This document shows, piece by piece, positions 28,295-60,604 of a DNA stretch of 64,000 nucleotides; position 1 is the first letter of the stretch; every line of letters starts with the position of its first letter. The translations under genes were made by a program, and so were the position numbers. The DNA comes from Eunapius fragilis (lineage: Eukaryota > Porifera > Demospongiae > Spongillida > Spongillidae): contig OY811972.1 in NCBI GenBank assembly GCA_963681505.1, positions 16,872,173 through 16,936,172 of the forward strand, in the 5' to 3' direction. Below the pieces are notes generated by a model. It did no database searches. It was not told the origin of the DNA and saw only the letters and a list, made by a program, of their open reading frames with translations.

Positions 28295-29487
28295 ATGATG
28301 AAAATGTTTAGCTTCCAAATACATACTCCACTACCAGTGCAAGGTGGTCGGCTGTTTGGAGGTGGTCTTGTGGAGGTGGAGGGTAGGGTTGTGTGGGGTG
28401 GACAAAGGGGAGTGTATGTTTTGGATGAAGTTGATTCACAGTGGAAGAGGTTGGCTGATGGTGGTGAGGTGGGGGCCACACTTGCTACATGTGGAGGAGA
28501 GTTGGTGTGTATTGGAGGTGTGAGAAATGAAGTGTGTAGAAAGGAGGTGATGGTACGGAGAGGAGGGAGGTGGACCTCCATGTCTGATATGTTGGTAGGG
28601 TCTGCAAGGTCCTGTGCAGTTATTGTTAGTGGAGGAGTTATGGTGATAATGGGAGGAGAAGGTGATAGAGGAAGGTACTTGAATGATGTGCAGATCTTTG
28701 ATGGTCGGACATGGCACTTGGGACCACCACTTCCTCAGCCATGTTGTGCCATGTCATCTGTCGCCCATGGAGATCTGATCTTTGTGATGGGGGGTAGCGG
28801 AATGGACAGAGCTGTGTGGTCTGCCAACATCACTGACCTGGTGAGCCACTGGACATTGTGTAACATCTCTAAGGGTTTAGTAGAGATAAATCACAAGGGT
28901 GGGGGGATCCCCAATCCTAGATAAAATTTGTGTCCCTGTGCATGCATGTAGCTAAAATTCCATCAACTCTGATCATGTAGAGTATTGTGTGCAGTGTATA
29001 CCTAGTGTTTTGTTACACTCACTTGCTCACATGGTCACATGATGGTCACACGGTTCTATCCACCTTCACCTATTTTCAACATGCATACTCACTAGACCAC
29101 TGCACATACCCATAACAATCAGCCATCTGTCTGGAGGCAGCTACCAGATGTACCATACTACTACTCATCTGTATGTGTGGTTGATGGTGTGCTCCTTGCC
29201 ATTGGAGGATCAGAGGATAGTGATGGCTCAAAGAAGACCTCTGCCATCTATGCCTTCCTCCATGTTGATCAGAAGTGGCAGCATGTTGGAGACATGCCAT
29301 TTCAGTGTACCAGGGTGGACTCACTACTTCTGTCAGGGGGAGGGCTGTTGGTGGTTGATGTGAGTAGTCGCCACGTGTTGGAGATCACTGTGGAAGGTTA
29401 TTCATACTTCAGTAGAACTGTGCTAACCAGAGTATTTTCAGGTCTGGCTAAGCTCTTCACCCCAAGCCTAAAGGAAGCAGATGAAAG
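28295..29487 (+). CDS. Kelch-like beta-propeller exons
   Basis: Two exons, 28295-28840 and 29096-29487, joined in phase 0. The first reads MMKMFSFQIHTPLP, then blocks ending in W: VDSQWKRLADG, RRGGRWTSMSDM, FDGRTWHLGPPLPQP, separated by glycine pairs (VWGGQRG, VCIGGV, VIMGGEGDRG, VMGGSG). The second reads VWRQLPDVPYYYSSV, LLAIGGSEDSDG, KWQHVGDMP and LLSGGGLLVVD. This is the Kelch pattern (hydrophobic strand, GG, then W and a P-rich turn), giving about four or five blades, usually a protein-binding platform. The first exon opens at an AG acceptor directly before ATGATG, so it may continue from an upstream exon. The nearest upstream in-phase exon is the kinase exon ending at 24,700. The second exon ends in phase 2 (KEADE plus AG), which fits the NTPase exon at 42,217 after a 12.7-kb intron. 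Confidence 0.78.
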
Positions 29488-29551
29488 GTGTGTGGGCCAT
29501 GCATGAGGGTACAAGCATCTAACATGTAATGTAATGCATGACTACTTTCAA

Positions 29552-32500
29552 GGGAGGGTGTGTGGAGGTGTACCTGGGGTGTGTGGAGGTGTACCTAGGG
29601 TGTGTGGAGGTTGTACCAGGGGTGTGTGGAGGTGTACCTGGGGTGTGTGGAGGTGTACCTGGGGTGTGTGCAGGTGTACCTGGAGTGTGTGGGGGTGTAC
29701 CTGGGGTGTGTGGAGGTGCACCTGGGGTGTGTGGAGGTGTACCTGGGGTGTGTGGAGGTGTACCTGGGGTGTGTGGAGGTGTACCTGGGGTGTGTGGAGG
29801 TGTACCTGGGGAGTATGGAGGTGTACCTGGGGTGTGTGGAGGTGTACCTGGGGTGTGTGGAGATGTACCTGGGGTGTGTGCAGGTGTACCTGGAGTGTGT
29901 GGGGGTGTACCTGGGGTGTGTGGAGGTGTACCTGGGGTGTGTGCAGGTGTACCTGGGGTGTGAGGAGGTGTACCTAGGGTGTGTGGAGGTGTACCTGGGG
30001 TGTGTGCAGGTGTACCTGGAGTGTGTGGGGGTGTACCCGGGGTGTGTGGAGGTGTACCTGGGGTGTGTGGAGGTGTACCTGGGGTGTGTGGAGGTGTACC
30101 TGGGGTGTGTGGAGGTGTACCTGGGGTGTGTGGAGGTGTACCTAGGGTGTGTGGAGGTGTACCTGGGGTGTGTGGAGGTGTACCTGGGGTGTGTGGAGGT
30201 GTACCTAGGGTGTGTGGAGGTGTACCTGGGGTGTGTGGAGTGTACCTGGGGTGTGTGGAGGTGTACCTAGGGTGTGTGGAGGTGTACCTGGGGTGTGTGG
30301 AGGTGTACCTGGGGTGTGTGGAGGTGTACCTAGGGTGTGTGGAGGTGTACCTGGGGTGTGTGGAGGTGTACCTGGGGTGTGTGGAGGTGTACCTGGGGTG
30401 TGTGGAGGTGTACCTAGGGTGTGTGGAGGTGTACCTGAAGAGTGTGGAGGTGTACCTGGGGTGTGTGGAGGTGTACCTAGGGTGTGTGGAGGTGTACCTG
30501 GGGTGTGTGCAGGTGTACCTAGGGTGTGTGGAGGTGTACCTGGGGTGTGTGGAGGTGTACCTGGGGTGTGTGGAGGTGTACCTGGGGTGTGTGGAGGTGT
30601 ACCTGGTGTGTGTGGAGGTGTACCTAGGGTGTGTGGAGGTGTACCTGGGGTGTGTGGAGGTGTACCTGGGGTGTGTGGAGGTGTACCTAGGGTTTGTGGA
30701 GGTGTACCTGGGGTGTGTGGAGGTGTACCTGGGGTGTGTGGAGGTGTACCTGGGGTGTGTGGAAGTGTACCTGGGGTGTGTGGAGGTGTACCTGGGGTGT
30801 GTGGAGGTGTACCTAGGGTGTGTGGAGGTGTACCTGGGGTGTGTGGAGGTGTACCTGGGGTATGTGGAGGTGTACCTAGGGTGTGTGGAGGTGTACCTGG
30901 GGTGTGTGGAGGTGTACCTAGGGTGTGTGGAGGTGTACCTGGGGTGTGTGGAGGTGTACCTGGGGTGTGTGGAGGTGTACCTGGGGTGTGTGGAGGTGTA
31001 CCTAGGGTGTGTGGAGGTGTACCTGGGGTGTGTGCAGTGTACCTGGGGTGTGTGGAGGTGTACCTAGGGTGTGTGGAGGTGTACCTGGGGTGTGTGGAGG
31101 TGTACCTAGGGTGTGTGGAGGTGTACCTGGGGTGTGTGGAGGTGTACCTGGGGTGTGTGGAGGTGTACCTAGGGTGTGTGGAGGTGTACCTGGGGCGTGT
31201 GGAGGTGTACCTGGGGTGTGAGGAGGTGTACCTGGGGTGTGTGGAGGTGTACCTGGGGTGTGTGGAGGTGTACAAAGGGTGTGTGGAGGTGTACCTGGGG
31301 TGTGTGGAGATGTACCTGGGGCGTGTGGAGGTGTACCTGGGGTGTGTGGAGGTGTACAAAGGGTGTGTGGAGGTGTACCTGGGGTGTGTGGAGGTGTACC
31401 TGGGGTGTGTGGAGGTGTACCTGGGGTGTGTGGAGGTGTACCTGGGGTGTGAGGAGGTGTACCTGGGGTGTGTGGAGGTGTACCTGGGGTGTGTGGAGGT
31501 GTACAAAGGGTGTGTGGAGGTGTACCTGGGGTGTGTGGAGGTGTACCTAGGGTGTGAGGAGGTGTACCTGGGGTGTGTGGAGGTGTACCTGGGGTGTGTG
31601 GAAGTGTACCTGGGGTGTGTGGAGGTGTACCTGGGGTGTGTGGAGGTGTACCTGGGGTGTGTGGAGGTGTACCTGGGGTGTGTGGAGGTGTACCTAGGGT
31701 GTGTGGAGGTGTACCTCGGGTGTGTGGAGGTGTACCTAGGGTGTGTGGAGGTGTACCTGGGGTGTGTGGAGGTGTACCTGGGGTGTGTGAAGGTGTATCT
31801 GGGGTGTGTGGAGGTGAACCTAGGGTGTGTGGAGGTGTACCTGGGGTGTGTGGAGGTGTACCTAGGGTGTGTGGAGGTGTACCTGGGGTGTGTGGAAGTG
31901 TACCTGGGGTGTGTGGAGGTGTACCTGGGGTGTGTGGAGGTGTACCTAGGGTGTGTGGAGGTGTACCTGGGGTGTGTGGAGGTGTACCTGGGGTATGTGG
32001 AGGTGTACCTAGGGTGTGTGGAGGTGTACCTGGGGTGTGTGGAGGTGTACCTAGGGTGTGTGGAGGTGTACCTGGGGTGTGTGGAGGTGTACCTGGGGTG
32101 TGTGGAGGTGTACCTGGGGTGTGTGGAGGTGTACCTAGGGTGTGTGGAGGTGTACCTGGGGTGTGTGCAGTGTACCTGGGGTGTGTGGAGGTGTACCTGG
32201 GGTGTGTGGAGGTGTACCTGGGGTGTGTGGAGGTGTACCTAGGGTGTGTGGAGGTGTACCTGGGGTGTGTGGAGGTGTACCTGGGGTGTGTGGAGGTGTA
32301 CCTGGGGTGTGTGGAGATGTACCTGGGGCGTGTGGAGGTGTACCTGGGGTGTGAGGAGGTGTACCTGGGGTGTGTGGAGGTGTACCTGGGGTGTGTGGAG
32401 GTGTACAAAGGGTGTGTGGAGGTGTACCTGGGGTGTGTGGAGATGTACCTGGGGCGTGTGGAGGTGTACCTGGGGTGTGAGGAGGTGTACCTGGGGTGTG

Positions 32501-35500
32501 TGGAGGTGTACCTGGGGTGTGTGGAGGTGTACAAAGGGTGTGTGGAGGTGTACCTGGGGTGTGTGGAGGTGTACCTAGGGTGTGAGGAGGTGTACCTGGG
32601 GTGTGTGGAGGTGTACCTGGGGTGTGTGGAAGTGTACCTGGGGTGTGTGGAGGTGTACCTGGGGTGTGTGGAGGTGTACCTGGGGTGTGTGGAGGTGTAC
32701 CTGGGGTGTGTGGAGGTGTACCTAGGGTGTGTGGAGGTGTACCTCGGGTGTGTGGAGGTGTACCTAGGGTGTGTGGAGGTGTACCTGGGGTGTGTGGAGG
32801 TGTACCTGGGGTGTGTGAAGGTGTATCTGGGGTGTGTGGAGGTGAACCTAGGGTGTGTGGAGGTGTACCTGGGGTGTGTGGAGGTGTACCTAGGGTGTGT
32901 GGAGGTGTACCTGGGGTGTGTGGAGGTGTACCTGGGGTGTGTGGAGGTGTACAAAGGGTGTGTGGAGGTGTACCTGGGGAGTGTGGAGGTGTACCTGGGG
33001 TGTGTGGAGGTGTACCTAGGGTGTGTGGAGGTGTACTTGGGGTGTGTGCAGGTGTACCTGGGGTGTGTGGAGGTGTACCTGGGGTGTGTGGAGGTGTACC
33101 TGGGGTGTGTGGAGGTGTACCTGGGGTGTGTGGAGGTGTACCTGGGGTGTGTGGAGGTGTACCTAGGGTGTGTGGAGGTGTACCTGGGGTGTGTGGAAGT
33201 GTACCTGGGGTGTGTAGAGGTGTACCTGGGGTGTGTGCAGGTGTACCTGGAGTGTGTGGGGGTGTACCTGGGGTGTGTGGAGGTGTACCTGGGGTGTGTG
33301 GAGGTGTACCTAGGGTGTGTGGAGGTGTACCTGGGGTGTGTGGAGGTGTACCTGGGGTGTGTGGAGGTGTACCTAGGGTGTGTGGAGGTGTACCTGGGGT
33401 GTGTGGAGGTGTACCTTGGGTGTGTGGAGGTGTACCTGGGGTGTGTGGAGTGTACCTGGGGTGTGTGGAGGTGTACCTAGGGTGTGTGGAGGTGTACCTG
33501 GGGTGTGTGGAGGTGTACCTGGGGTGTGTGGAGGTGTACCTAGGGTGTGTGGAGGTGTACCTGGGGTGTGTGGAGGTGTACCTGGGGTGTGTGGAGGTGT
33601 ACCTAGGGTGTGTGGAGGTGTACCTGGGGTGTGTGCAGTGTACCTGGGGTGTGTGGAGGTGTACCTAGGGTGTGTGGAGGTGTACTTGGGGTGTGTGCAG
33701 GTGTACCTGGGGTGTGTGGGGGTGTACCTGGGGTGTGTGGAGGTGTACCTGGGGTGTGTGGAGGTGTACCTGGGGTGTGTGGAGGTGTACCTGGGGTGTG
33801 TGGAGGTGTACCTGGGGTGTGTGGAGGTGTACCTAGGGTGTGTGGAGGTGTACCTGGGGTGTGTGCAGTGTACCTGGGGTGTGTGGAGGTGTACCTAGGG
33901 TGTGTGGAGGTGTACCTGGGGTGTGTGGAGGTGTACCTAGGGTGTACCTGGGGTGTGTGGAGGTGTACCTGGGGTGTGTGGAGGTGTACCTGGGGTGTGT
34001 GGAGATGTACCTGGGGCGTGTGGAGGTGTACCTGGGGTGTGAGGAGGTGTACCTGGGGTGTGTGGAGGTGTACCTGGGGTGTGTGGAGGTGTACAAAGGG
34101 TGTGTGGAGGTGTACCTGGGGTGTGTGGAGATGTACCTGGGGCGTGTGGAGGTGTACCTGGGGTGTGAGGAGGTGTACCTGGGGTGTGTGGAGGTGTACC
34201 TGGGGTGTGTGGAGGTGTACAAAGGGTGTGTGGAGGTGTACCTGGGGTGTGTGGAGGTGTACCTAGGGTGTGAGGAGGTGTACCTGGGGTGTGTGGAGGT
34301 GTACCTGGGGTGTGTGGAAGTGTACCTGGGGTGTGTGGAGGTGTACCTGGGGTGTGTGGAGGTGTACCTGGGGTGTGTGGAGGTGTACCTGGGGTGTGTG
34401 GAGGTGTACCTAGGGTGTGTGGAGGTGTACCTCGGGTGTGTGGAGGTGTACCTAGGGTGTGTGGAGGTGTACCTGGGGTGTGTGGAGGTGTACCTGGGGT
34501 GTGTGAAGGTGTATCTGGGGTGTGTGGAGGTGAACCTAGGGTGTGTGGAGGTGTACCTGGGGTGTGTGGAGGTGTACCTAGGGTGTGTGGAGGTGTACCT
34601 GGGGTGTGTGGAGGTGTACCTGGGGTGTGTGGAGGTGTACAAAGGGTGTGTGGAGGTGTACCTGGGGAGTGTGGAGGTGTACCTGGGGTGTGTGGAGGTG
34701 TACCTAGGGTGTGTGGAGGTGTACTTGGGGTGTGTGCAGGTGTACCTGGGGTGTGTGGAGGTGTACCTGGGGTGTGTGGAGGTGTACCTGGGGTGTGTGG
34801 AGGTGTACCTGGGGTGTGTGGAGGTGTACCTGGGGTGTGTGGAGGTGTACCTAGGGTGTGTGGAGGTGTACCTGGGGTGTGTGGAAGTGTACCTGGGGTG
34901 TGTAGAGGTGTACCTGGGGTGTGTGCAGGTGTACCTGGAGTGTGTGGGGGTGTACCTGGGGTGTGTGGAGGTGTACCTGGGGTGTGTGGAGGTGTACCTA
35001 GGGTGTGTGGAGGTGTACCTGGGGTGTGTGGAGGTGTACCTGGGGTGTGTGGAGGTGTACCTAGGGTGTGTGGAGGTGTACCTGGGGTGTGTGGAGGTGT
35101 ACCTTGGGTGTGTGGAGGTGTACCTGGGGTGTGTGGAGTGTACCTGGGGTGTGTGGAGGTGTACCTAGGGTGTGTGGAGGTGTACCTGGGGTGTGTGGAG
35201 GTGTACCTGGGGTGTGTGGAGGTGTACCTAGGGTGTGTGGAGGTGTACCTGGGGTGTGTGGAGGTGTATCTGGGGTGTGTGGAGGTGTACCTGGGGTGTG
35301 TGGAGGTGTACCTGGGGTGTGTGGAGGTGTACCTGGGGTGTGTGGAGGTGTACCTGGGGTGTGTAGAGGTGTACCTAGGGTGTGTGGAGGTGTACCTGGG
35401 GAGTGTGGAGGTGTACCTGGGGTGTGTGGAGGTGTACCTAGGGTGTGTGGAGGTGTACCTGGGGTGTGTGCAGGTGTACCTAGGGTGTGTGGAGGTGTAC

Positions 35501-38500
35501 CTGGGGTGTGTGGAGGTGTACCTGGGGTGTGTGGAGGTGTACCTGGGGTGTGTGGAGGTGTACCTGGGGTGTGTGGAGGTGTACCTAGGGTGTGTGGAGG
35601 TGTACCTGGGGTGTGTGGAGGTGTACCTGGGGTGTGTGGAAGTGTACTTGGGGTGTGTGGAGGTGTACCTAGGGTGTGTGGAGGTGTACCTGGGGTGTGT
35701 GGAGGTGTATCTGGGGTGTGTGGAGGTGTACCTGGGGTGTGTGGAGGTGTACCTGGGGTGTGTGGAGGTGTACCTGGGGTATGTGGAGGTGTACCTGGGG
35801 TATGTGGAGGTGTACCTGGGGTGTGTGGAGGTGTACCTGGGGTGTGTGGAAGTGTACCTGGGGTGTGTGGAGGTGTACCTAGGGTGTGTGGAGGTGTACC
35901 TGGGGTGTGTGTAGGTGTATAGGTGTACCTAGGGTGTGTGGAGGTGTACCTGGAGTGTGTGGAGGTGTACCTGGGGTGTGTGGAGGTGTACCTGGGGTGT
36001 GTGGAAGTGTACCTGGGGTGTGTGGAGGTGTACCTGGGGTGTGTGTAGGTGTACCTAGGGTGTGTGGAGGTGTACCTGGAGTGTGTGCAGGTGTACCCGG
36101 GGTGTGTGGAGGTGTACCTGGAGTGTGTGGGGGTGTACCTGGGGTGTGTGGAGGTGTACCTGGGGTGTGTGGAGGTGTACCTAGGGTGTGTGGAGGTGTA
36201 CCTGGGGTGTGTGGAGGTGTACCTGGGGTGTGTGGAGGTGTACCTAGGGTGTGTGGAGGTGTACCTGGGGTGTGTGGAGTGTACCTGGGGTGTGTGGAGG
36301 TGTACCTAGGGTGTGTGGAGGTGTACCTGGGGTGTGTGGAGGTGTACCTGGGGTGTGTGGAGGTGTACCTAGGGTGTGTGGAGGTGTACCTGGGGTGTGT
36401 GGAGGTGTATCTGGGGTGTGTGGAGGTGTACCTGGGGTGTGTGGAGGTGTACCTGGGGTGTGTGGAGGTGTACCTGGGGTGTGTGGAGGTGTACCTGGGG
36501 TGTGTGGAGGTGTACCTAGGGTGTGTGGAGGTGTACCTGGGGAGTGTGGAGGTGTACCTGGGGTGTGTGGAGGTGTACCTAGGGTGTGTGGAGGTGTACC
36601 TGGGGTGTGTGCAGGTGTACCTAGGGTGTGTGGAGGTGTACCTGGGGTGTGTGGAGGTGTACCTGGGGTGTGTGGAGGTGTACCTGGGGTGTGTGGAGGT
36701 GTACCTGGGGTGTGTGGAGGTGTACCTAGGGTGTGTGGAGGTGTACCTGGGGTGTGTGGAAGTGTACCTGGGGTGTGTGGAGGTGTACCTAGGGTGTGTG
36801 GAGGTGTACCTGGGGTGTGTGGAGGTGTATCTGGGGTGTGTGGAGGTGTACCTGGGGTGTGTGGAGGTGTACCTGGGGTGTGTGGAGGTGTACCTGGGGT
36901 ATGTGGAGGTGTACCTGGGGTATGTGGAGGTGTACCTGGGGTGTGTGGAGGTGTACCTGGGGTGTGTGGAAGTGTACCTGGGGTGTGTGGAGGTGTACCT
37001 AGGGTGTGTGGAGGTGTACCTGGGGTGTGTGTAGGTGTATAGGTGTACCTAGGGTGTGTGGAGGTGTACCTGGAGTGTGTGGAGGTGTACCTGGGGTGTG
37101 TGGAGGTGTACCTGGGGTGTGTGGAAGTGTACCTGGGGTGTGTGGAGGTGTACCTGGGGTGTGTGTAGGTGTACCTAGGGTGTGTGGAGGTGTACCTGGG
37201 GTGTGTGGAGGTGTACCTAGGGTGTGTGGAGGTGTATCTGGGGTGTGTGGAGGTGTACCTGGGGTGTGTGGAGGTGTACCTAGGGTGTGTGGAGGTGTAC
37301 CTGGGGAGTGTGGAGGTGTACCTAGGGTGTGTGGAGGTGTACCTGGGGTGTGTGGAGTGTACCTGGGGTGTGTGGAGGTGTACCTAGGGTGTGTGGAGGT
37401 GTACCTGGGGTGTGTGGAGGTGTACCTGGGGTGTGTGGAGGTGTACCTGGGGTGTGTGGAGGTGTACCTAGGGTGTGTGGAGGTGTACCTGGGGTGTGTG
37501 GAGGTGTACCAAGGGTGTGTGGAGGTGTACCTGGGGTGTGTGGAGGTGTACCTGGTGTGTTTGGAGGTGTACCTAGGGTGTGTGGAGGTGTACCTGGGGT
37601 GTGTGGAGGTGTACCTGGGGTGTGTGGAGGTGTACCTAGGGTGTGTGGTGGTGTACCTGGGGTGCGTGGAGGTGTACCTGGGGTGTGTGGAGGTGTACCT
37701 GGGGTGTGTGGAGGTGTACCTAGGGTATGTGGAGGTGTACCTGGGGTGTGTGGAGGTGTACCTAGGGTGTGTGGAGGTGTACCTGGGGTGTGTGGAAGTG
37801 TACCTGGGGTGTGTGGAGGTGTACCTGGGGTGTGTGGAGGTGTACCTGGGGTGTGTAGAGGTGTACCTGGGGTGTGTGGAGGTGTACCTGGGGTGTGTGG
37901 AGGTGTACCTAGGGTGTGTGGAGATGTACCTGGGGTGTGTGGAGGTGTACCTGGGGTGTGTAGAGGTGTACCTGGGGTGTGTGGAGGTGTACCTGGGGTG
38001 TGTGGAAGTGTACCTGGGGTGTGTGGAGGTGTACCTGGGGTGTGTGGAGGTGTACCTAGGGTGTGTGGAGGTGTACCTGGGGTGTGTGGAGGTGTACCTG
38101 GGGTGTGTGGAGGTGTACCTGGGGTGTGTGGAGGTGTACCTAGGGTGTGTGGAGGTGTACCTGGGGTGTGTGGAGTGTATCTGGGGTGTGTGGAGGTGTA
38201 CCTAGGGTGTGTGGAGGTGTACCTGGGGTGTGTGGAGGTGTACCTAGGGTGTGTGGAGGTGTACCTGGGGTGTGTGGAGTTGTACCTAGGGTGTGTGGAG
38301 GTGTACCTGGGGTGTGTGGAAGTGTACCTGGGGTGTGTGGAGGTGTACCTGGGGTGTGTGGAGGTGTACCTGGGGTGTGTGGAGATGTACTTAGGATGTG
38401 TGGAGGTGAACCTGGGGTGTGTGAAGGTGTATCTGGGGTGTGTGGAGGTGAACCTAGGGTGTGTGGAGGTGTACCTGGGGTGTGTGGAGGTGTACCTAGG

Positions 38501-41500
38501 GTGTGTGGAGGTGTACCTGGGGTGTGTGGAGGTGTACCTGGGGTGTGTGGAGGTGTACTGGGGTGTGTGGAGGTGTACCTGGGGAGTGTGGAGGTGTACC
38601 TGGGGTGTGTGGAGGTGTACCTGGGGTGTGTGGAGGTGTACTTGGGGTGTGTGCAGGTGTACCTGGGGTGTGTGGAGGTGTACCTGGGGTGTGTGGAGGT
38701 GTACCTGGGGTGTGTGGAGGTGTACCTGGGGTGTGTGGAGGTGTACCTGGGGTGTGTGGAGGTGTACCTAGGGTGTGTGGAGGTGTACCTGGGGTGTGTG
38801 GAAGTGTACCTGGGGTGTGTGGAGGTGTACCTGGGGTGTGTGGAGGTGTACCTGGGGTGTGTGGAGGTGTACCTGGGGTGTGTGGAGGTGTACCTGGGGT
38901 GTGTGGAGGTGTACCTAGGGTGTGTGGAGGTGTACCTGGAGTGTGTGGAAGTGTACCTGGGGTGTGTGGAGGTGTACCTGGGGTGTGTGGAGGTGTACCT
39001 AGGGTGTGTGGAGGTGTACCTGGGGTGTGTGGAGGTGTACCTAGGGTGTGTGGAGGTGTACCTGGGGTGTGTGGAGGTGTACCTGGGGTGTGTGGAGGTG
39101 TGCCTAGGGTGTGTGGAGGTGTACCTGGGGAGTGTGGAGGTGTATCTGGGGTGTGTGGAGGTGTACCTGGGTGTGTGGAGGTGTACCTGGGGTGTGTGCA
39201 GGTTTACCTAGGGTGTGTGGAGGTGTACCTGGGGTGTGTGGAGGTGTACCTGGGGTGTGTGGAGGTGTACCTGGGGTGCGTGGAGGTGTACCTGGGGTGT
39301 GTGGAGGTGTACCTAGGGTGTGTGGAGGTGTACCTGGGGTGCGTGGAGGTGCACCTGGGGTATCTGGAGGTGTACCTGGGGAGTGTGGAGGTGTACCTGT
39401 GGTGTGTGGTGGTGTACCTGGGGTGTGTGGAGGTGTACCTGGGGTGTGTGGAGGTGTACCTGGGGTGTGTGGAGGTGTACCTGGGGTGTGTGGAGGTGTA
39501 CCTGGGGTGTGTGGACGTGTACCTGGGGTGTGTGGAGGTGTACCTAGGGTGTGTGGAGATGTACCTGGGGTGTGTGGAAGTGTACCTGGGGTGTGTGGAG
39601 GTGTACCTGGGGTGTGTGGAGGTGTACCTGGGGTGTGTGGAGGTGTACCTGGGGTGTGTGGAGGTGTACCTGGGGTGTGTGGAGGTGTACCTGGGGTGTG
39701 TGGGGGTGTACCTGGGGTGTGTGGAGGTGTACCTAGGGTGTGTGGAGGTGTACCTGGGGTGTGTGGAGTGTACCTGGGGTGTGTGGAGGTGTACCTGGGG
39801 TGTGTGGAGGTGTACCTGGGGTGTGTGGAGGTGTACCTAGGGTGTGTGGAGTGTACCTGGGGTGTGTGGAGGTGTACCTGGGGTGTGTGGAGGTGTACCT
39901 GGGGTGTGTGGAGGTGTACCTGGGGTGTGTGGAGGTGTACCTGGGGTGCGTGGAGGTGTACCTGGGGTGTGTGGAGGTGTACCTAGGGTGTGTGGAGGTG
40001 TACCTGGGGTGCGTGGAGGTGCACCTGGGGTATCTGGAGGTGTACCTGGGGAGTGTGGAGGTGTACCTGTGGTGTGTGGTGGTGTACCTGGGGTGTGTGG
40101 AGGTGTACCTGGGGTGTGTGGAGGTGTACCTGGGGTGTGTGGAGGTGTACCTGGGGTGTGTGGAGGTGTACCTGGGGTGTGTGGACGTGTACCTGGGGTG
40201 TGTGGAGGTGTACCTAGGGTGTGTGGAGGTGTACCTGGGGTGTGTGGAAGTGTACCTGGGGTGTGTGGAGGTGTACCTGGGGTGTGTGGAGGTGTACCTG
40301 GGGTGTGTGCAGGTGTATCTGGGGTGTGTGGAGGTGTACCTGGGGTGTGTGGAAGTGTACCTGGGGTGTGTGGAGGTGTACCTGGGGTGTGTGGACGTGT
40401 ACTTGGGGTGTGTGGAGGTGTACCTAGGGTGTGTGGAGGTGTACCTGGGGTGTGTGGAAGTGTACCTGGGGTGTGTGGAGGTGTACCTGGGGTGTGTGGA
40501 GGTGTACCTGGGGTGTGTGCAGGTGTATCTGGGGTGTGTGGAGGTGTACCTGGGGTGTGTGGAGGTGTACCTGGGGTGTGTGGAGGTGTACCTGGGGTGT
40601 GTGGAGGTGTACCTGGGGTGTGTGGAGGTGTACCTAGGGTGTGTGGAGGTGTACCTGGGGTGTGTGGAGTGTACCTGGGGTGTGTGGAGGTGTACCTGGG
40701 GTGTGTGGAGGTGTACCTGGGGTGTGTGGAGGTGTACCTAGGGTGTGTGGAGGTGTACCTAGGGTGTGTGGAGGTGTACCTGGGGTGTGTGGAGGTGTAC
40801 CTGGGTGTGTGGAGGTGTACCTGGGGTGTGTGAAGGTGTATCTGGGGTGTGTGGAGGTGTACCTAGGGTGTGTGGAGGTGTACCTGGGGTGTGTGGAGGT
40901 GTACCTGGGGTGTGTGGAGATGTACTTGGGATGTGTGGAGGTGTACCTGGGGTGTGTGGAGGTGTACCTAGGGTGTGTGGTGGTGTACCTGGGGTGTGTG
41001 GAGGTGTACCTAGGGTGTGTGGTGGTGTACCTGGGGTGTGTGGAGGTGTACCTAGGGTGTGTGGAGGTGTACCTGGGGTGTGTGGAGGTGTACCTAGGGT
41101 GTGTGGAGGTGTACCTGGGGTGTGTGGAGGTGTACCTGGGGTGTGTGGAGGTGTACCTGGGGTGTGTGGAGGTGTACCTGGGGTGTGTGGAGATGTACCT
41201 GGGGAGTGTGGAGGTGTACCTAGGGTGTGTGGAGGTGTACCTAGGGTGTGTGGAGGTGTACCTAGGGTGTGTGGAGGTGTACCTGGGGTGTGTGGAGGTG
41301 TACCTGGGTGTGTGGAGGTGTACCTGGGGTGTGTGAAGGTGTACCTGGGGTGTGTGGAGGTGTACCTAGGCTGTGTGGAGGTGTACCTAGGGTGTGTGGA
41401 GATGTACCTAGGGTGTGTGGAGGTGTACCTGGGGTGTGTGGAGGTGTACCTGGGTGTGTGGAGGTGTACCTGGGGTGTGTGAAGGCGTATCTGGGGTGTG

Positions 41501-42130
41501 TGGAGGTGTACCTAGGGTGTGTGGATGTGTACCTGGGGTGTGTGGAGGTGTACCTGGGGTGTGTGGAGATGTACTTGGGATGTGTGGAGGTGTACCTGGG
41601 GTGTGTGGAGGTGTACCTAGGGTGTGTGGAGGTGTACCTGGGGTGTGTGGTGTACCTAGGGTTGTGGAGGTGTACCTGGGGTGTGTGGAGGTGTACCTGG
41701 GGTGTGTGGAGGTGTACCTAGGGTTGTGGAGGTGTACCTGGGGTGTGTGGAGGTGTACCTTGAGTGTGTGGAGGTGTACCTAGGGTGTGTGGAGGTGTAC
41801 CTGGGGTGTGTGGAGGTGTTCCTGGGGTGTGTGAAGATGTACCTAGGGTGTGTGGAGGTGCACCTAGGGTGTGTGGAGGTGTACCTGGGGTGTGTGAAGG
41901 TGTACCTAGGGTGTGTGGAGGTGTACCTATGGTGTGTGGTGGTGTACCTGGGGTGTGTGGAGATGTACCTGGTGTGTGGTGAGGTGTACCTAGGGTGTGT
42001 GGTGGTGTACCTGGGGTGTGTGTAGGTGTACCAAGGGTTGTGTGGAGGTGTACCTGGGGTGTGTGGAGGTGTACCTAGGGTGTGTGGAGGTGTACCTGGG
42101 TGTGTGGAGGTGTACCTGGGGTGTGTGGAG
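29552..42130. repeat. 12.6-kb minisatellite, 21-bp unit, inside the Kelch-to-NTPase intron
   Basis: Roughly 600 head-to-tail copies of a 21-bp unit with core GTGGAGGTGTACCTGGGG. The most common variant is CTAGGG for CTGGGG. Others are GTACAAAGGG, GAGGAGG, GGGGCGTG, GTGCAGG, GTGGAAG and TGTATCTGG. Because 21 is a multiple of three and no unit carries a stop, all three plus frames and minus frames are open for up to 676 codons (repeats of VEVYLGC, CGGVPGV or WRCTWGV). Scattered 20-bp units (GTGTGGAGTGTACC) shift the frame, the three frames are equally open, and true coding exons with splice sites flank it at 29,487 and 42,217. It is therefore intronic and not a protein gene. Larger blocks are themselves duplicated. 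Confidence 0.96.
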
Positions 42131-42216
42131 GTGCATCTAGAGCAATGTCCATGTACTTTTTGCATATCGCACTTTGAAATGATCAATTCTACATGTTATG
42201 GTTATCTTCCATTCAG

Positions 42217-46829: not shown

Positions 46830-47159
46830 GTATGACATCCCCACCATCTTTGGGACAAAAAGCCTATCCCTCATCAGTTCCTTCTCCTCCAATTGGATTA
46901 AAAGCTGACAATATCAAAGCTACATCAATGACCATATCTTGGAAGCCACCACATGATGTAAATGGTATCATCAGAGGTTATCAAGTCAGCTACACTCCAC
47001 ATGGTGAAAGTGAATGCCTTCATGATATTGCAGGAAATACTACCAGTACTGAGCTGACTGGTCTAAGACCACACACTGAGTACACCATACGTGTGAGGGC
47101 CAAGACAGTGGATTATGGGGAGTACAGCACTTCAATCATTGCCAGCACACTTGAAGATG
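46830..47159 (+). CDS. FN3 domain exon 1
   Basis: Acceptor CACACTCAG before 46,830, donor GATG/GTGAGT after 47,159, phase 1 at both ends. Reads PSPPIGLKADNIKATSMTIS, WKPPHDVNGIIRGYQVSY, TSTELTGLRPHTEYTIRVRA, a complete fibronectin type III fold with the usual W, the Y-x-V strand, L-x-P-x-T/E-Y and A-x-T end. It is preceded by a short Ser/Pro linker (MTSPPSLGQKAYPSS). The phase-1 start fits the preceding Death exon, and the phase-1 end fits the next FN3 exon at 50,043. From 44,670 to 46,829 I see only retroelement debris, and 47,160-48,878 has no supported feature. Confidence 0.88.
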
Positions 47160-50042: not shown

Positions 50043-50330
50043 TTCCTTCTCCTCCAATTGGATTAAAAGCTGACAATATCAAAGCTACATCCATGACCAT
50101 ATCTTGGAAGCCACCACATGATGTACATGTAAATGGTATCATTAGAGGTTATCAAGTCAGCTATACTGTACATGGTGAAAGTGAATGCCTTCATGATATT
50201 GCTGGAAATACTACCAGTACTGAGCTGACTGGTCTAAGACCACACATTGAGTACACCATACGTGTGAGGGCCAAGACAGTGGATTATGGGGAGTACAGCA
50301 CTCCAATCACTGCCAGCACACTTGAAGATG
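50043..50330 (+). CDS. FN3 domain exon 2
   Basis: Acceptor CTTCCTCCCCAG before 50,043, donor GATG/GTGAGT after 50,330, phase 1 at both ends. The translation is almost the same as FN3 exon 1: VPSPPIGLKADNIKATSM, then a two-residue insertion (HDVHVNGII), then VSYTVHGESECLHDI and EYSTPITASTLED. The high nucleotide identity indicates recent exon duplication. The phase-1 end joins the NTPase 2 exon at 56,258 across a 5.9-kb intron that contains an LTR retrotransposon. Confidence 0.88.
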
Positions 50331-50799: not shown

Positions 50800-53700
50800 T
50801 GTAAAAATATATTAATAATGATCAGGCGCATGCGCAAGTACAACCATGACAACACTAATAATACGTGTTATGCCACATCTCCCTTTCTTGCAAGGGTTGA
50901 GTTCCATCCAAATCGTTCAGGGGGACGGATCACTGTCCCTGTCTGTGACCGTGTCATAATTCTATGAGGTTCCTGTGGTTGGTGGTCTTGCTCCTGTTCA
51001 TAGGTATTGGGTTGTTGTGGTTTCTCCGCTTGTTCGGGTTCCTGCTCCAAGGAGTCAGGTTGTTGTGGTTCCTCTGCACCTTGCCTAACAACATTAGGCA
51101 AGACGTTGAGGTAGTGTCGATTACGACGTGCTAAGCCACCCTGAGTTTCCACAATGTATGACCGCGGAGCCCCTGCCTTTCCCACCACTATACCAGGGGT
51201 CGGCTTACTCTTGTATGTTGTGATCCACACCTCAGTCTGATCTGGAATATCTGGAAGTTGGTGGACTCTGTGATGCCTGTCAAAATTGGACTTTTGGTGG
51301 GATTTAAACTCCAAGTCTTGCTCCTGAAATAGAAGCAGATAAGGCCATTCTGGTTTCAGATGTTCAAGGGTTTGTGGAAGGTTAGTGCGCAATTGCCGGC
51401 CCGTCAGCAGTTGAGCCGGTGACAGACCACACCAGGGTAGTTGTGTGGAACGGTAGGTGAGAATGGCTAGGTACGGGTAGAGACTCTGGCCCCACAATAC
51501 GCTTTTGGAAAAGAAGCAAATCGTTGTGAACTGATAGATCTCCTTGAACTTTCCAGTAAGGCTTTAGGACAGGTTCAATCTTGTGTCTCTCTGGCCATCC
51601 ACTAGACAATGCTTCATCACTGCTGAACACACAGGATCTGCTAGCTGGGCTTCCGCGTATTGTTTTAACCGCCCCTCACTGCACTGGCTGGAAGATGTTT
51701 AATGCAAACTTCCATGATATGATCTGCTTCTTCCTCTAGCCGCATGTCAGCCTTAGTGATGGGCCCTGGTGCTCGAGACAGTGTATCTGCTGTGCACAAG
51801 AGCTTACCAGGCACGTGCTGAATAGTAAAATCGAAGCGTGCTAGCCTCAGCCGAAATCGAAGAATTCGTGGTGGTAACGTATCGAGGTGCTTTGATCCTA
51901 ACAGTGGAACTAGCGGCTTGTGATCAGTTTCAATGTGGAATTTAAGTCCAACAATATAACTGGCAAACTTTTCACACACCCATACAGTAGCCAGTGCTTC
52001 TTTCTCGATTTGTGCGTACCGTTTTTCAGTATCTGACATTGACCGGGATGCATATGCCACAGGTTTCCATTCCCCATCACTTCTCTGTAGCAATACTGCC
52101 CCCAACCCATGCGATGATGCATCTGCCGAAAGTTTGGTTGGTGCATCTGGGGTATAGAAGGCAAGCACTGTTGGCTTGCAAAGCTTGGCTTTAACCTGAG
52201 CAAAGGCTTCTTCTTGAGCACAACCCCATTGCCAAGTGTGGTTTTTGCTCAAGAGTTCTCGAAGAGGCTGCGTTACCTGTCCTAAGTTAGGTGAAAACTT
52301 CCCCATTTGGTTTGCCATTCCAAGAAATCGTCTCAATTCTGTGATGTTACTGGGTGAGCTGAGACCTTCAATAGCAGACGTTTTCTCTGGATCTGCTTGG
52401 ACGCTATGTTGGTCAATGACATGCCCGAGAAAGAGTAGTTTCCCTTTCTCAAACTCACACTTCTCCCTATTTAGAGTTACTCCAGCATCACGGATTCTGT
52501 TTAATGCCGCTATGAGGCGAGCGTTATGTTCCTCTTTGTCCCTGCCAAACACTAACACATCGTCCATCTGACACAGGACCCCCTCAAGGCCTGCAAGGAT
52601 TTTACTCATTCGCTTCTGGAAGTGCTCAGGCGCACTGCAAATCCCAAACGGAAGTTTGTGAAAGTAGTAACGACCAAATGGAGTGATGAATGTGGTCAGA
52701 AGTTTGGACCTCTCAGTCAAGGGTATTTGCCAAAATCCGGAATTTGCATCGAGTTTGCTGCTCCTGCCAACTGTGCTAAGGTTTCATCTACTTTTGGAAG
52801 AGGGTATACCTCCCGGCAAACATAACGATTTAAGGGTTGGTAGTCCACACATATGCGGATTGCCCCACTCTTCTTGGGAGCAACCACCATTCCGGCACAC
52901 CATGGAGTTGGCTCATCTACTTTTGAGATGATTCCCAGTGACTCCATTCGCTCCAACTCCTGCTTGACCTTGAGACGCAATGGTAAAGGAATGTTCCGGG
53001 AGGTAAACAAAGCATAGGGCTGTGCCTCTGGTTGCAACTGAATGTCATAAGGGTCATCCTTGCTCCCCAGCCCCTGGAATAGTGTAGGATATTTTTCCAC
53101 AATAGTGTGAAGTGCAGCTTCCACTGTTTCCTCTAGCTTTGCCACCAACTTCAGAGCGAGGATAGCTGGTAGTCCCAGCAGGTTAGTTCTCAGTCCGTTT
53201 ACTACATACACATTCTGCTTGGTAGTTTTCCCTCGATAAAACAGCTCCCCTTCATACTGACCGATTACCTTTAAAAGAGTGCGTGCAGGACTGTACAGCA
53301 TCTTCTTGGGTCTGTCTAGTTTAAGCCCTTTAAAAGCTCTGAAAGCCACATCCAAAATTGCTGTTACCTCAGCTCCAGTATCTATTTTGAACTCCAACGT
53401 TTGATTCGCCAGCTTTAACTTCATTCTCCAGGTTTCAGGACTGTTTTGTGTAAGTGTGTCTAAGAATGCACTGTCAAGGTTGCTCTCGTCTGGTTGTAAC
53501 TCCGCCACTGTCTTTATAGGCACTGTGAGCCATAGTGTCCTAGCTCTCCGCTTGCATTTATGACACACAGACCACTTGGCAGGGTAAGTATACCAAGGAT
53601 GCTGGCCTTTCCCGCATTTGATACACTGCTTAGGTGTTTGTTTTGGCTTTGCAGGAGAAACACCTGCTGGTTTTGTCTTGGTGCCTTGGCCCCTAAGGAA

Positions 53701-54411
53701 GTCCATTGAGCTGTTTTCCCCCTTGAAAAAAGAGCCGCTTTCTGCCTCCTTGAGCACCTGTTGTTGTGTGTGGACCGCCTCTCTCTGCCGGATCATGGTC
53801 TTTGCTTTCTCTAAAGTGAGATCCGGATTTAGTTGAAGTCTTTCTGAGAGGGCTAGATCCCTAATACCGACAACAAGACGGCCACGGATCATTTCAGAGG
53901 TGAGCTGCCCGTATGAACACCGCTCTGCCAAGTAATATAGCTCCGTGATGTACTGGTCGCCAGACTCACCTTCCAGCTGGTCACGTCTGTTGAAGCGCGC
54001 CTGCTCGAAAATGACATTGTGTCGAACATGGAAATACTCATCCAGTTTCTCCACTACTTTCTTGTAGCTTTTCCTCTCATTGTCTGTGATACGGGGTCCG
54101 TGGACACATAAACCACTTCTGCCTCCTCGCCCATAGAATATAATAACATACTGACTTGCTTAGAGTCAGATTGTGTGTCGAGGGACGAGTCGATACGGAA
54201 CTGTTCGAACCGCCGTTTCCAGCGGGTCCAGTCGTCAGGGTTCTTGAAGTCGAACGCTTCCGGAGGTTGCAACCGAATATCTGCCATGTCCAACCGTGGG
54301 TTTCAGAGAACCGCTGCCACCATGTAAGTGTTCGTAAAATATATATTAATAATGATCAGGTGCATGCGCAAGTACAACCATGACAACACAAATAATACGT
54401 GTTATGCCACA
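50800..54411 (-). mobile_element. Ty3/gypsy-type LTR retrotransposon with 78/89-bp LTRs and CCATC target duplication
   Basis: LTRs at 50,800-50,877 and 54,323-54,411 share ATTAATAATGATCAGG and ACGTGTTATGCCACA. On the coding (minus) strand they begin TGTGGCATAAC and end in TTACA. The left copy lacks about eight bases near its end. Perfect 5-bp target duplications CCATC lie at 50,795-50,799 and 54,412-54,416. A primer-binding-site-like TGGTGGCAGCGG follows the 5' LTR on the minus strand (54,311-54,322). Internal gene order is gag, zinc knuckle, protease, RT, RNase H, integrase remnant. The two LTRs differ at several positions, so the insertion is not very recent. It lies antisense in the intron between FN3-2 and NTPase 2. 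Confidence 0.93.
50880..54293 (-). pseudogene. Broken gag-pol of the LTR retrotransposon
   Basis: Gag begins at 54,293 (MDMADIRLQPPEAFDF) and shifts frame near 54,055. A zinc knuckle follows (CIKCGKGQHPW) in which the fourth ligand appears to be Tyr instead of Cys. The protease motif IDTGAEVT is intact. RT runs across a frameshift near 52,760: the first palm aspartate motif (SKLDANSGF) lies in the downstream frame, and the second motif reads QMDDVL. RNase H (KLSADASSHGLGAVLL) is intact, ending at 51,665. After it only the end of the integrase survives (LSPAQLLTGRQLR, then a C-terminal tail), so the catalytic core of integrase is deleted. With at least two frameshifts and this deletion the copy is not autonomous. 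Description only. Confidence 0.85.
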
Positions 54412-54416
54412 CCATC

Positions 54417-55125: not shown

Positions 55126-55254
55126 CAAAAAACAAAAAAAAACGCGTAGAATTAATTCTTGATTTTTAATTGATTTGTCACTTACATTCTGGTACATTAT
55201 TTGTACCAGGTATTTAGCCTATCACATGTGCGCTCTCGCGCTTCTCTTTCTCAT

Positions 55255-56257: not shown

Positions 56258-58498
56258 ATATTTTAGCTCAAAAGTTGTCAAGCATCTTGGCTGACTATAA
56301 AGATATTTCATTTCATGGTTTCAAGATTGGAAAGCTTATTTTCTATGGAACCCCAAGAGCTGGGAAAACCACCCTTCGTAAACAACTTCTTAGACATACT
56401 GAAGATATGCTACAAACATGTAGCACTCCTGAACCAAGCACACCCATTGCGGAGATTGGTAGTCCTATTTTGATTGAGCGCATTTTAGCACAGAATGAAG
56501 AAAACAATGAATGGAGGTGGTCTGTCAAAGAATTAGATGACATTGCTAAAATGTTACTGCATTCCTTAGACTATGAACTGTCTAAACATGAGAACATGCA
56601 AAATGAATTACCTGAATCCAATTTTATAAGCCTGAACGTTTCACTATCGCCTAGTAGTTCAAATGCCATAACTGGGCATCTGGATTTAGGAAAGCCACAT
56701 GTACAACAAACTGCGGCTACTACGACCACTGCTAGCAGCATATCTGAAGCAGCAAAAACATCTAATTCAATGCAAACCATGGAAACCAATCAGATGACCA
56801 GTACTTCATCTGATGTAGCGGAAGTGCAAAATGATCAAACCAATTCAAACGTAGACATTCAGCAGTTGTTTAAAGATGCAGTTAAATCAGGGCAATGGTC
56901 AGAGGTATTAGATGCTCTTCATTCCCTCGATAATTCAATGCTTCTACAAGTGATTGATGGAGGTGGGCAACCCACCTTTCAAGAAATATTTCCTCTTCTA
57001 ATCAGTGGTCCTTCGGTAACACTTATAATCTTCAAGCTAACAGATGGTCTAACAGAGTCTAAACCAGTCCGGTACCAACCACGTGATGGAAAGGAGCACT
57101 CATGGCAAGACAGTTATGTGGTTAAGGAGTTCATTTTCCATGCTCTCTCCAGTGTATGTACATTTTTTGATGGTAATCCTCAGATTTTACTAGTTGGCAC
57201 ACACAAAGATAAACTGGAGGGCTCTGAAGACCAAAAGATGGCTATAATTAGAAATATTGCCACATCATTGCGTGGCTGGCTGCGAGAATCAAAACCTTAT
57301 AAATCCATGAAAATAGAAAGTATTGAAGATTTCATCATTGGTATCCACAACTTTCAAAAACAAGATATACTAAAAGTAAAAGCAGAAATTGAGAAGTTAG
57401 TATCTCATATAGCTCCTCAAGATATCCCAGCTCCTTTTCTTGTATTTGACTTTGTTCTGCACTCGTATGCCAAATCTAAACATCTTCGTAAGGTTGAAAA
57501 AGTAAAATGTTGCAAAATAGCTCAATTATGTGGTATAAAAGATGATAAGTTTGAGGCGGCCCTGGCATTTCTGTGTGATAATGCAGGCACATTGCTATAT
57601 TATGCTGATATTCCTCAGCTAAAGAATTATGTCATTACTGACTTCCAGCTAATATTTGATTCTATATCTAAAATTATTATTGAAGTGAACTACTTAGACT
57701 ACAATGAATCTCTGCGTACAAAGGGACAGTTAGAGGCTTCTGTGCTGAAAGATGTTGAAGGATGTCTTAATAAGGATGAACTACTTAGTCTATTGCAACG
57801 TCGTCATATTATATCTAAAATGGATGAAAATGTGTTCTTTATGCCTTCTGTGCTATCAAAGGCAGACCCATCATGTAACAAATCACGTTCCTTTTTAGTG
57901 ATGTTTGAATATGGCTACTGCCCTATTGGTCTGTTCTGTGCAGCAACAACTAGACTTATTGTTGAACACAAGTGGAATGTTATAAAAACTGATAACCAAT
58001 TTAGGAACAAAATAAGCTTTTATTATCGGGTTTCTGGATTGTCATACCAGATAATATTTTCATCTTTTTCTACTTATTATGAAGTACACCTGTTAGAAGA
58101 TGAAGGTGAGACAGGATCAAATACCAGGTCTGCGATCTTCAAGGCTATGAAAGAAGTGTTTACAAAAGTTGGCACTGATATGCACTGTCCATGTCCATCG
58201 TATGGATTCTACTGTCCAAAGGAGTGCACATATAATGGTGTCACTTATCCTCAATACCAGCATCCTGCCAAATGTCAATTTGATGATACGGCACTGGAGA
58301 TGAATTGTTACTATACTGATAAACGGACTAGACTGACAGACGAGCACAAGTCATGGTTTCCCAAGGTAATGTCTGTATGGACTGAGTTATGCTATTTACT
58401 GATTGATAATAGAAGTATCAGTACTAAGTGTAATTATCCACTTACAACACTGAATCAGTGGTTGCAGATAATTATGTTGTCCATTTATACCAATTCAG
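56258..58498 (+). CDS. ROCO-like P-loop NTPase exon (NTPase 2)
   Basis: One large exon begins after TTTGCAG with a phase-1 codon completed from FN3-2 (D, then ILAQKLSSILADYKD) and ends TCAG/GTGCAC at 58,498 in phase 1. G1/Walker A is FYGTPRAGKTTLRKQLL, the G3 region is VIDGGGQPTFQEIFPLL (about 56,953) and G4 is LLVGTHKDKL (about 57,190). Between G1 and G3 sits a roughly 140-residue insertion rich in Ser, Thr, Asn and Gln (residues about 75-215), absent from NTPase 1. A COR-like region follows, with LLYYADIPQLKNYVITD, FFMPSVL and FEYGYCPIGLFCAATTRL, then a Cys-rich tail (MHCPCPSYGFYCPKECTY). It aligns in order with NTPase 1, so the two are paralogous modules. An optional intron (58,366-58,467, 102 bp, in frame) could be removed. 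If unspliced, the frame runs to a stop at 58,555. Confidence 0.87.
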
Positions 58499-58745
58499 GT
58501 GCACCAGCAAGAAGTGATCAATGGTATGATGTAATGCCTTATACCTATGTTGTATGATGTAGCCGGTGTATCTTATACAAGTTAAGGGAGCATGTTCATC
58601 TGTTCCATAGTTTGTAGTTTATATGATCAAATGATCACAAGTAGCATTGTGTTACTGGCCTTTTGTATTGAGAGAATATCAATGGAATACATTTAGAATG
58701 GTACCATTAATTATGCTGGTATTATATAGTATTTAACTCTTCTAG

Positions 58746-60604
58746 ATGGTGGAAATCAAGGTAGAGATGGAGATAGAAGACAAAGTGGAGGAACTAGAGA
58801 ATGTGGGGTTGTTGATAATACAGTACCAAGTCCTCATGATGGTGATGATTTCCCAAATGTGTCTGGTGACCCTCTTGGTATGTTCAGCATATCATGTAGT
58901 GTTGTGTCTTACAAACCACACTTCTTGGGCCAGGTGAGGATCACATCATTGATATAATGGAGGCAGTGCTGGATGGAGCCGCAAGATGGCAGTCGCTGGG
59001 AACTGCCCTAAGAATTAGGCAAACGGAAATGGATATTATTTCGGCAACACATCACAATGACCCAATAGAATGTCTCAGAGATGTGCTTTATGCATGGCTA
59101 CAGCAGCGCTATGATACCATGACATATGGTCAGCCATCTTGGAAGCTGTTATGCATAGCTGTACATAAACCTGTTGGGGGTAATAACCCAGCATTGGCGA
59201 GGAGGATTGCAGGTTAGCCTGGTTGATTACATTATAAATTAATTTCTGGCCGACAGTCATGTTTTATAATAGCTGGGGGATTAGAAAAGTATTTAAAAAT
59301 CCTGTGTTTATGCAGCTTTCATTGACATGGCTTTCAATTTATGTACATGTCAGTTTAAAGAGATGCTGGCTAGGATGCTTCATTAAATTGTTGAGAAAAT
59401 GTTTATTGGTTTATCGAACAGAATGATTTCTAGTCATTCTCATGTTCGATGTAATAAACAATTGTGTATATGACACTTGCAGCTCGTGATAATCGATGTG
59501 AGGTTGATGATAACTCAGTAGCATGTACAGGTGGTGTTGATTTCTCAAATGTTCCTGGTGAACCCCTTGGTACGTTGACAACATCGTATAGTGCTCTTTC
59601 TCACAAACCACTCTCCCTTGGCCCAGGTGAGGATGACCTTGTAGATGTGATGGAGGTAGTGCTGGATATGGCAGCAAAGTGGAAGTCACTAGGAGCAGCC
59701 CTGAGGATTAGGCATGCAGAGTTGAATACAATTTCAGCAAGGCACCAGAATGACCCAATAGAATGCCTCAGAGATATACTTTGCGCTTGGCTACAGCAAC
59801 ATTATGATCACAATATTAATGGTCAGCCATCTTGGAGGATCTTGTGCCAAGCTATATACAAACCTGTTGGTGGCAATAACCCAGGATTGGCTAGCAGGAT
59901 TGCAGGTTAGCCTGATATACTAGGTTTATATATATTTTTGAGTCATAATTATATTACAAAAGCTGAGGATATAAAGCAAGAGAAAATAATCCAATGAGGT
60001 TTAAATTAAGCCTTCAGTGCATGGCATAGTTTCCAATCCATCACCAATTTATTAATACTCTAAAATAAGAAAGTCTACATTGAATGGAATTCTCATATTA
60101 GTGAACTTATAAATGACGCATGCATGTTATGACACTTGTAGATGGTGGCAATCAAGGTAGAGGTGGAGGAACAGGAGGACATGGGGTTGGAGGTAATACA
60201 GTACCTTGTACAGGTGATGATTTCTCAAGCGTGTGTGAGGACCCTCTTGGTATGTTGAGCACATCATGCAGTGTTATGTCTTACAAACCACACCCCTTGA
60301 CCCAGGTGAGGATGACTGTGACGATGTAGTGGAGGCAGTAATTGATATGGCAGCTAAATGGAAGTCCCTGGGATTGGCCCTGAGGATTAGGCATGCTGAG
60401 TTGAATACTATTTCAGCAACACATCACAATGATCCTGTCAAGTGTCTCAGAGATATGCTATATGCTTGGCTTCAAGAACATTATGATACCACAACATATG
60501 GTCAGCCAACTTGGAAGCTGTTGTGCAAAGCAGTACACAAACCAGTTGGAGGCAATAATCCAGTATTAGCGAAGAAAATACGTGATGATAGAACAATTAG
60601 TTAG
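58746..60604 (+). CDS. Three tandem linker + Death-domain exon pairs, gene 3' end
   Basis: Linker exons are 58746-58877, 59483-59569 and 60142-60249 (Gly/Asn/Arg-rich, for example GGNQGRGGGTGGHGVGG, each ending DDF...PL or VDFSNVPGEPL). Death exons are 58934-59212, 59627-59905 and 60306-60604. Each Death exon reads E-D-D/H, then AAKWKSLGLALRIRHAEL, NDPIECLRDMLYAWLQ, GQPSWKLLCKAVHKPVGG, a Death-fold six-helix pattern with the conserved W in helix 5. All borders except the last are phase 1, so units can be gained or lost without breaking frame. Linker and Death exons are separated by 56-, 57- and 56-bp introns of similar sequence. The third Death exon continues to KKIRDDRTIS and a TAG at 60,602-60,604. 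They follow NTPase 2 in phase. Death domains bind other Death domains in signalling assemblies. Confidence 0.85.
58934..59212 (+). CDS. Death-domain exon 1
   Basis: Reads EDHIIDIMEAVLDGAARW, RQTEMDIISATHHNDP, AWLQQRYDTMTYGQPSW and ends NPALARRIAG. It is 279 bases long, the same as Death exon 2, phase 1-1. Confidence 0.87.
59627..59905 (+). CDS. Death-domain exon 2
   Basis: Reads EDDLVDVMEVVLDMAAKW, HAELNTISARHQNDP, GQPSWRILCQAIYKPVGG. Same length and phase as unit 1. Its linker (59483-59569) is the shortest and lacks the glycine-rich part. Confidence 0.87.
60306..60604 (+). CDS. Death-domain exon 3 with terminal stop
   Basis: Reads EDDCDDVVEAVIDMAAKW, LALRIRHAELNTISATHH, LQEHYDTTTYGQPTW and ends in a stop instead of the usual ATTGCAG/GTTAGC donor. 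The change from donor to AAAATACGTGATG makes it terminal. Confidence 0.87.

Follow-up and report, generated by a model that had tools for sequence, protein, structure and literature searches.

An exon series with Kelch, ROCO-type GTPase, Death and FN3 domains in the sponge Eunapius fragilis: a Kelch-ROCO-Death gene type and its possible 3′ extension by phase-1 cassettes

DAPK1 carries an N-terminal kinase and ankyrin repeats, and NLR receptors combine a NACHT domain with LRR. ROCO proteins, the ROCO-Death arrangement, Roco proteins with Kelch motifs and exon shuffling in phase 1 are all already known: Roc-COR proteins are described as GTPases linked to dimerisation, with ROCO-Death as the DAPK1 arrangement (PMC6320773, PMC6337361), some Roco proteins bear Kelch motifs (PMC6320773), and class 1-1 exon shuffling is documented (PMC8001218). 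The window analysed here, a stretch of 64,000 nucleotides on contig C2 (C2:16,872,173-16,936,172) of a searched genome of 219 Mb in 24 contigs, carries on its + strand the order Kelch, R1 (a ROCO-type GTPase), D1 (Death), two FN3 exons, R2 (a second ROCO) and three linker-plus-Death pairs. Like the DAPK1 group, this gene series has Roc-COR followed by Death, D1 standing after R1; unlike that group, it has a Kelch N-terminus, FN3 cassettes and two ROCO modules, and neither kinase nor ankyrin is among the Pfam matches of ten window exon pieces. It likewise differs from NLR receptors in having neither NACHT nor LRR among the Pfam matches of the window pieces scanned.

Three further described systems offer partial parallels. 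As in brown algae, whose ROCO genes carry shuffled LRR exons, ROCO is diversified here by same-phase exon cassettes, although the algal cassettes are described as 72-bp phase-2 LRR exons and those of the window are whole phase-1 FN3 and Death modules on the C-terminal side (PMC11378527). The Death/TRADD-N proteins known from Amphimedon and other marine invertebrates share lineage-specific expansion, many combinations and repeated Death-like domains, whereas the set described there is based on TRADD-N, a domain not found among the Pfam matches of the window exon pieces (PMC8195603). Domain gain by the joining of adjacent-gene exons resembles the present case in that a complete gene apparently gains downstream 3′ exons after duplication, with the difference that apparent intermediates (stop kept or lost, with a donor) coexist here in one genome (PMC2926785). 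In the open-licence literature searched, neither the combination of ROCO, Kelch, Death and FN3 nor side-by-side donor-over-stop states was found, and among the open-licence titles listed for sponge, Roco, Death domain and Kelch none concerned this architecture.

A Pfam domain scan of ten exon pieces of the series supports the domains and the single-strand order proposed in the preliminary description, together with the alignment of R1 with R2 and a joint profile of both. Specifically, Kelch_1 is found in the Kelch exons (1e-15 and 2e-6) and fn3 in F1 and F2 (1e-21 and 2e-19), while COR-A on R2 (7e-7) falls under its curated cut-off, as does Death in the scanned window pieces (1.5e-4 to 2.7e-3); all 11 Death-type exons scanned give a Death match. 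A model of the Death domain built from four window exons reaches a pLDDT of 71, and its top Foldseek matches in the PDB are mostly death domains, none significant (best E 0.99); single-sequence PDB searches returned nothing useful. R1 alone has no significant Pfam match, and R1b has no Pfam COR match; the ROCO label of R1 comes from its alignment with R2 (~25% identity, tblastn 1e-26) and from a profile of nine R1/R2 proteins, three of them with Pfam COR-A (R2 included), that matches the Roc-COR region of LRRK2 chains over ~300 residues at E 6.6e-7. In this profile match Roc is followed directly by COR, as expected of a ROCO module. The translations contain a Roc P-loop, GAAGVGKT in R1a and GTPRAGKT in R2, and the Pfam Roc model matches weakly (E 0.13 and 0.026).

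Fourteen exons joined between 28,295 and 60,604, with the borders first proposed adjusted to GT-AG, yield a single open frame of 2349 aa, and the count reaches the 15 coding exons originally claimed once a 45-nt intron within the second Kelch exon is added. Exon 1 (28,304-28,840) encodes Kelch repeats and exits in phase 0; its likely start codon lies at 28,304, where Met is kept in 13/13 copies. Exon 2a (29,123-29,396, Kelch repeats) exits in phase 1 and exon 2b (29,442-29,487) in phase 2. The putative intron between them (29,397-29,441) opens with an in-frame stop in 12/12 relatives and is open only in the window; its DNA starts G|GTTAG in nine of the 12. The Kelch-to-ROCO intron holds a 12.6-kb minisatellite of 21-bp units, without strand (29,556-42,133), whose unit is also present in L039, in L040 and twice in L042. 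R1a (42,217-42,482) covers the first half of the Roc GTPase domain, P-loop included, with weak Pfam matches only, and R1b (42,538-44,073) covers the remainder of Roc plus COR. The Death exon D1 (44,137-44,430) ends in a phase-1 donor, GTAAGT; left unspliced, its frame stays open up to a stop whose last base is 44,666.

The downstream part of the series comprises the FN3 exons F1 (46,878-47,159) and F2 (50,043-50,330), whose DNA is 94% identical, followed by R2 (56,258-58,365), which is entered in phase 1. Between F2 and R2, the intron contains a retrotransposon stretch on the - strand (50,801-54,411; reverse transcriptase, RNase H), flanked by 78-bp direct repeats (96%). Three linker-Death pairs then follow on the + strand: the glycine-rich linker exon L1 (58,746-58,877) with D2 (58,934-59,212), L2 (59,483-59,569) with D3 (59,627-59,905), and L3 (60,142-60,249) with the final Death exon D4 (60,306-60,604), which carries a stop. 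Contrary to the earlier boundary, the row continues past 60,604 on the same strand, with a decayed FN3 cassette of broken frame 3′ of the Death array (61,034-61,330), two more linker-like copies (62,217-62,826, comprising 62,217-62,364 and 62,718-62,826) and a truncated Death cassette (62,877-63,131) that ends IAEEHS before a stop. An Rfam scan of 44-64 kb gave no match at the gathering score, and PADLOC gave one weak match.

Both borders are in phase 1 in D1, F1, F2, L1-L3, D2 and D3, which bears out most of the proposal that module borders from D1 onward are phase 1; R2, which exits in phase 0, is the exception. Its donor at 58,365 is conserved in 10/10 R2 copies read, and joining it to L1 brings a stop at aa 1929: the frame breaks because R2 exits in phase 0 and the linker enters in phase 1, so the assertion that every junction is phase-compatible fails at this point. 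The donor first proposed, 58,498, is a weak one, placed in a tail region where copies differ by indels of 14 nt and 7 nt. A strong phase-1 donor at 58,105, present in the window, L002 and both L020 copies, is absent from the other six R2 copies compared. In-frame routes nevertheless exist: R2 read on to 58,557 (1940 aa), passage through the unconserved phase-1 donors 58,105 or 58,498 (2184 or 2315 aa), and a route that skips R2 (1568 aa). A search of the window sequence also found micro-exon candidates between R2 and L1. A single chain uniting the two ROCO modules with the Death tail, as the preliminary description proposed, is unsupported as stated, given the phase-0 exit of R2 and the completeness of Kelch-R1-D1 elsewhere; it is possible through the unconserved donors, and is not the favoured reading.

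The series exceeds chance, as its exons belong to large families in the genome. Counted as match rows, which are lower bounds and include fragments, there are at least 84 for R1 (186 candidates), at least 62 for R2 (distant R1-type rows among them), at least 73 for D2-type Death, at least 92 for the Kelch exon, at least 150 for FN3 (the best 150 of 596 candidates) and at least 150 for D1 (the best 150 of 189). dN/dS is well below 1 for R1b, R2 and D2-D4, and not for D1. With the L003 and L005 rows left out of the comparison, R1b gives 0.33-0.38 against seven paralogues, and its end gives 0.56-0.64 against C2 copies; R2 gives 0.27 and 0.32 against L007 and L008, and 0.48 against the nearer, stop-carrying L002; D2, D3 and D4 give 0.17-0.26 among themselves and 0.23-0.44 against three other Death2 copies. 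D1, at 0.75-0.81 against C2 copies, is under relaxed constraint, which counts against the reading in which it is joined to downstream exons.

Outside C2, Kelch-R1-D1 is, on its sequence, a complete gene type. The compact gene occurs on C1, C4 and C7 with all five exon matches in 11/11 copies read, and an in-frame stop lies 98-118 codons from the D1 start in 11/11 copies read outside C2, D1 being a 97-aa module. FN3-R2-Death2 genes occur on C12, where they have no close Kelch-R1 match alongside and carry Kelch type B and Death B exons of their own, absent from the window; in one C12 gene a ZU5 exon follows R2. On C2 itself, the neighbour gene L043 joins ROCO, FN3, linker and Death within 1.9 kb in a single frame, all in phase 1 and with a stop; its ROCO, of which the 3′ part only was compared, is 34% identical to R1b. 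A decayed gene at 15.85-15.87 Mb (L041/L042) has the order Kelch-FN3-ROCO-FN3-Death, with an in-frame stop in the ROCO exon and a frameshifted Death exon; joins were found for 2/6 of its junctions, one Kelch intron not being modelled, and this copy was used for exon order only.

Whether the window holds one gene or two turns on the passage from D1 to F1. Fusion appears somewhat more likely than two genes, and the best reading, at even odds, is a fused Kelch-ROCO-Death gene that is extendable at its 3′ end, with the short Kelch-ROCO-Death form probably existing alongside the fused one. Among 27 R1 copies at ≥65% identity, FN3 on the same strand within 30 kb downstream follows 4/4 copies on C2 and 0/23 elsewhere, which counts for fusion; C1, C4, C5 and C7 have no FN3 match among the best 150 of 596. 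L043, with its phase-1 joins, also counts for fusion, as do the donors of D2 and D3 and the lack in the window of the Kelch type B and Death B exons borne by the C12 FN3-R2 genes. In 6/6 C2 copies read, the phase-1 donor that closes D1 has a score of 6.1-8.0, against a score of ≥6 in 1/11 copies outside C2 and in 5.2% of random coding stretches; the L010 D1 end has no phase-1 GT. These scores use standard donor frequencies; a matrix trained on the family's own exons was dropped, the copies being redundant. Four of the six are shown to follow R1b, while in L032 and L033 no R1b match lies within 2 kb, and the count leaves out two further C2 copies of D1, at 16,463,304 and 15,839,257. Since the copies are related by duplication, the six donors do not amount to six independent events and count as suggestive. 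L030, L031 and L033 retain the stop after D1, which is lost in the window, L029 and L032; because it falls within the donor-like site, or directly behind it, in the first three, that site could be old stop context. L033 also counts against fusion, with a donor-like D1 end followed by no downstream FN3 match and by a Death exon instead.

At the other side of the junction, the F1 acceptor at 46,878 is kept in 4/4 C2 copies and most likely marks the start of the exon, in place of the acceptor at 46,830 first put forward, which is lost in L034. In the frame before F1, codon positions 1/2/3 vary 5/5/1, where the FN3 exon shows 10/9/15 (few sites), and F1 looks like an internal exon. A start codon within the F1 exon was considered and rejected, the ATG-containing frame varying in a manner that is not coding-like, again at few sites. 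L034 aligns with the D1-F1 interval at 88-92%, and L035 does so in part.

The principal alternative, less probable yet still a serious contender, is that the Kelch-ROCO-Death gene ends near D1 and that a second gene contains FN3-FN3-R2 and/or the Death array, having lost a 5′ Kelch-Death part. The stop after D1 in all Kelch-R1-D1 genes read outside C2 and the C12 genes without a Kelch-R1 companion point this way, and so does the decayed C2 gene, in which no phase-1 donor scoring >4 was found from the ROCO exon up to the following FN3, its donors after the ROCO exon being in phases 0 and 2. This absence lowered confidence in fusion from slightly better than even to even. Against two genes stand the lost stop of the window, the non-coding-like variation of the ATG-containing frame before F1 (few sites) and the interval itself, in which no start exon of the known exon types was found at 44.7-46.9 kb of the window or in its two relatives, L034 and L035. 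That Kelch-ROCO-Death is functional and all that follows is a decaying row of duplicated cassettes is improbable: stops in several R2 relatives, the decayed tail beyond 60.6 kb and the phase mismatch of R2 with the linker would fit, but R2 is open over its full length, D2, D3 and D4 are intact, and the dN/dS of R2 against L007, L008 and L002 and of D2-D4 among themselves speaks against it.

The gain and loss of domains as exon cassettes, also suggested at the outset, is well supported. C2 bears a tandem FN3 array of ten exons spaced 768-783 bp, the linker-Death pairs are tandem copies, and L043 provides phase-1 joins. Exons also appear to have recombined internally: an FN3 tail is found on a Death exon, and, by eye, a Roc-exon start on an FN3 exon of the decayed C2 gene. 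At the Death exons, donor and stop overlap, as GGT-AGG-TRA at D1 in three C2 copies and as GCA-GGT-TAG at D2 and D3. The latter two end GCAG|GTTAGC (donor CAG|GTTAGC) with a donor score of 6.6, whereas D4 and five other D2-type copies have no good donor, the five ending in IAEEHS (three), IAEEHS plus six residues (L026) or IAIKHS (L027), then a stop. The D2/D3 donor looks like the product of nine bases lost from the end of what was once a last exon.

Under the fused, 3′-extendable reading, the base gene would combine a Kelch sensor, a Roc-COR GTPase switch and a Death adaptor, and its 3′ end would have opened to downstream phase-1 cassettes. With the C2 donor at the D1 end, a transcript would either stop near D1 or splice to FN3-FN3 and then to further cassettes, the window having additionally lost the stop after D1. 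From F2, the transcript could run into R2, ending by read-on at 58,557, or bypass R2 and enter the three linker-Death pairs. We infer this D1-F1 splicing and the isoforms from genomic sequence, in which exons, families, phases, conserved splice sites and constraint are directly observed. A splice-or-stop switch, whereby the splicing choice would set the number of Death domains (one to four) and of ROCO modules (one or two) per protein, is a speculative extension and rather unlikely. The Kelch propeller may bind a ligand, Roc-COR would switch with GTP and with dimerisation, and the Death domains, one to four in number, would recruit Death-domain partners; the protein probably senses inside the cell and in doing so drives the assembly of Death domains, the whole biochemical role being deduced and the GTPase activity predicted.

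Together, the window and its relatives present, within one genome, apparent successive steps of domain gain: a complete gene, a donor over the stop, loss of the stop, and cassettes downstream. If true, the joining of adjacent-gene exons, the usual account of domain gain in animals, would become testable by RNA-seq in a family with a probable part in cell-death or immune signalling, and the relatives suggest how a complete gene may acquire new domains from the blocks that follow it.

The intron that separates the Kelch exons from R1, the first ROCO-type GTPase of the window, is filled by a 12.6 kb minisatellite with a 21-bp unit (29,556–42,133), whereas the corresponding intron measures only about 0.5–0.8 kb in the eight relatives read on contig C1. 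The same 21-bp unit also occurs in the Kelch-to-ROCO intron stretches of two relatives on C2, the contig that carries the window (L039 and L040).

Farther downstream, the intron between the second FN3 exon and the second ROCO module, R2, harbors a retrotransposon stretch on the minus strand (50,801–54,411) with reverse transcriptase and RNase H matches, flanked by 78-bp direct repeats that are 96% identical. At two other loci, L034 and L035, the interval between the Death exon D1 and the FN3 exons contains insertions with open frames that look reverse transcriptase-like by eye, and about 2.7 kb of inserted sequence in this interval is common to both loci, with the copies approximately 95% alike.

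At the R2-to-linker junction, other R2 copies that have no ZU5 match, at L020 and L027, seem to show a phase-0 donor followed by a phase-1 linker, as in the window, and the frame clash is therefore not confined to the window. Additionally, a further large family of ROCO matches, with roughly 33–39% identity to R1, lies on C2 at 7.7–10.3 Mb, with D1-like Death matches close by.

Upstream of the main gene model, the plus strand of the window carries a TTC21-like exon (1,704–1,967) and a RING-finger exon (8,435–8,728), the latter with a Pfam match close to the cut-off. The intervening open reading frame at 4,795–5,139 has no Pfam match; by eye, it looks as though it belongs to the same gene, as its zinc-finger portion.

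At L024 (3290–3709) and L021 (1173–1592), a Death exon terminates in the final codons of an FN3 exon, apparently the outcome of recombination within exons.
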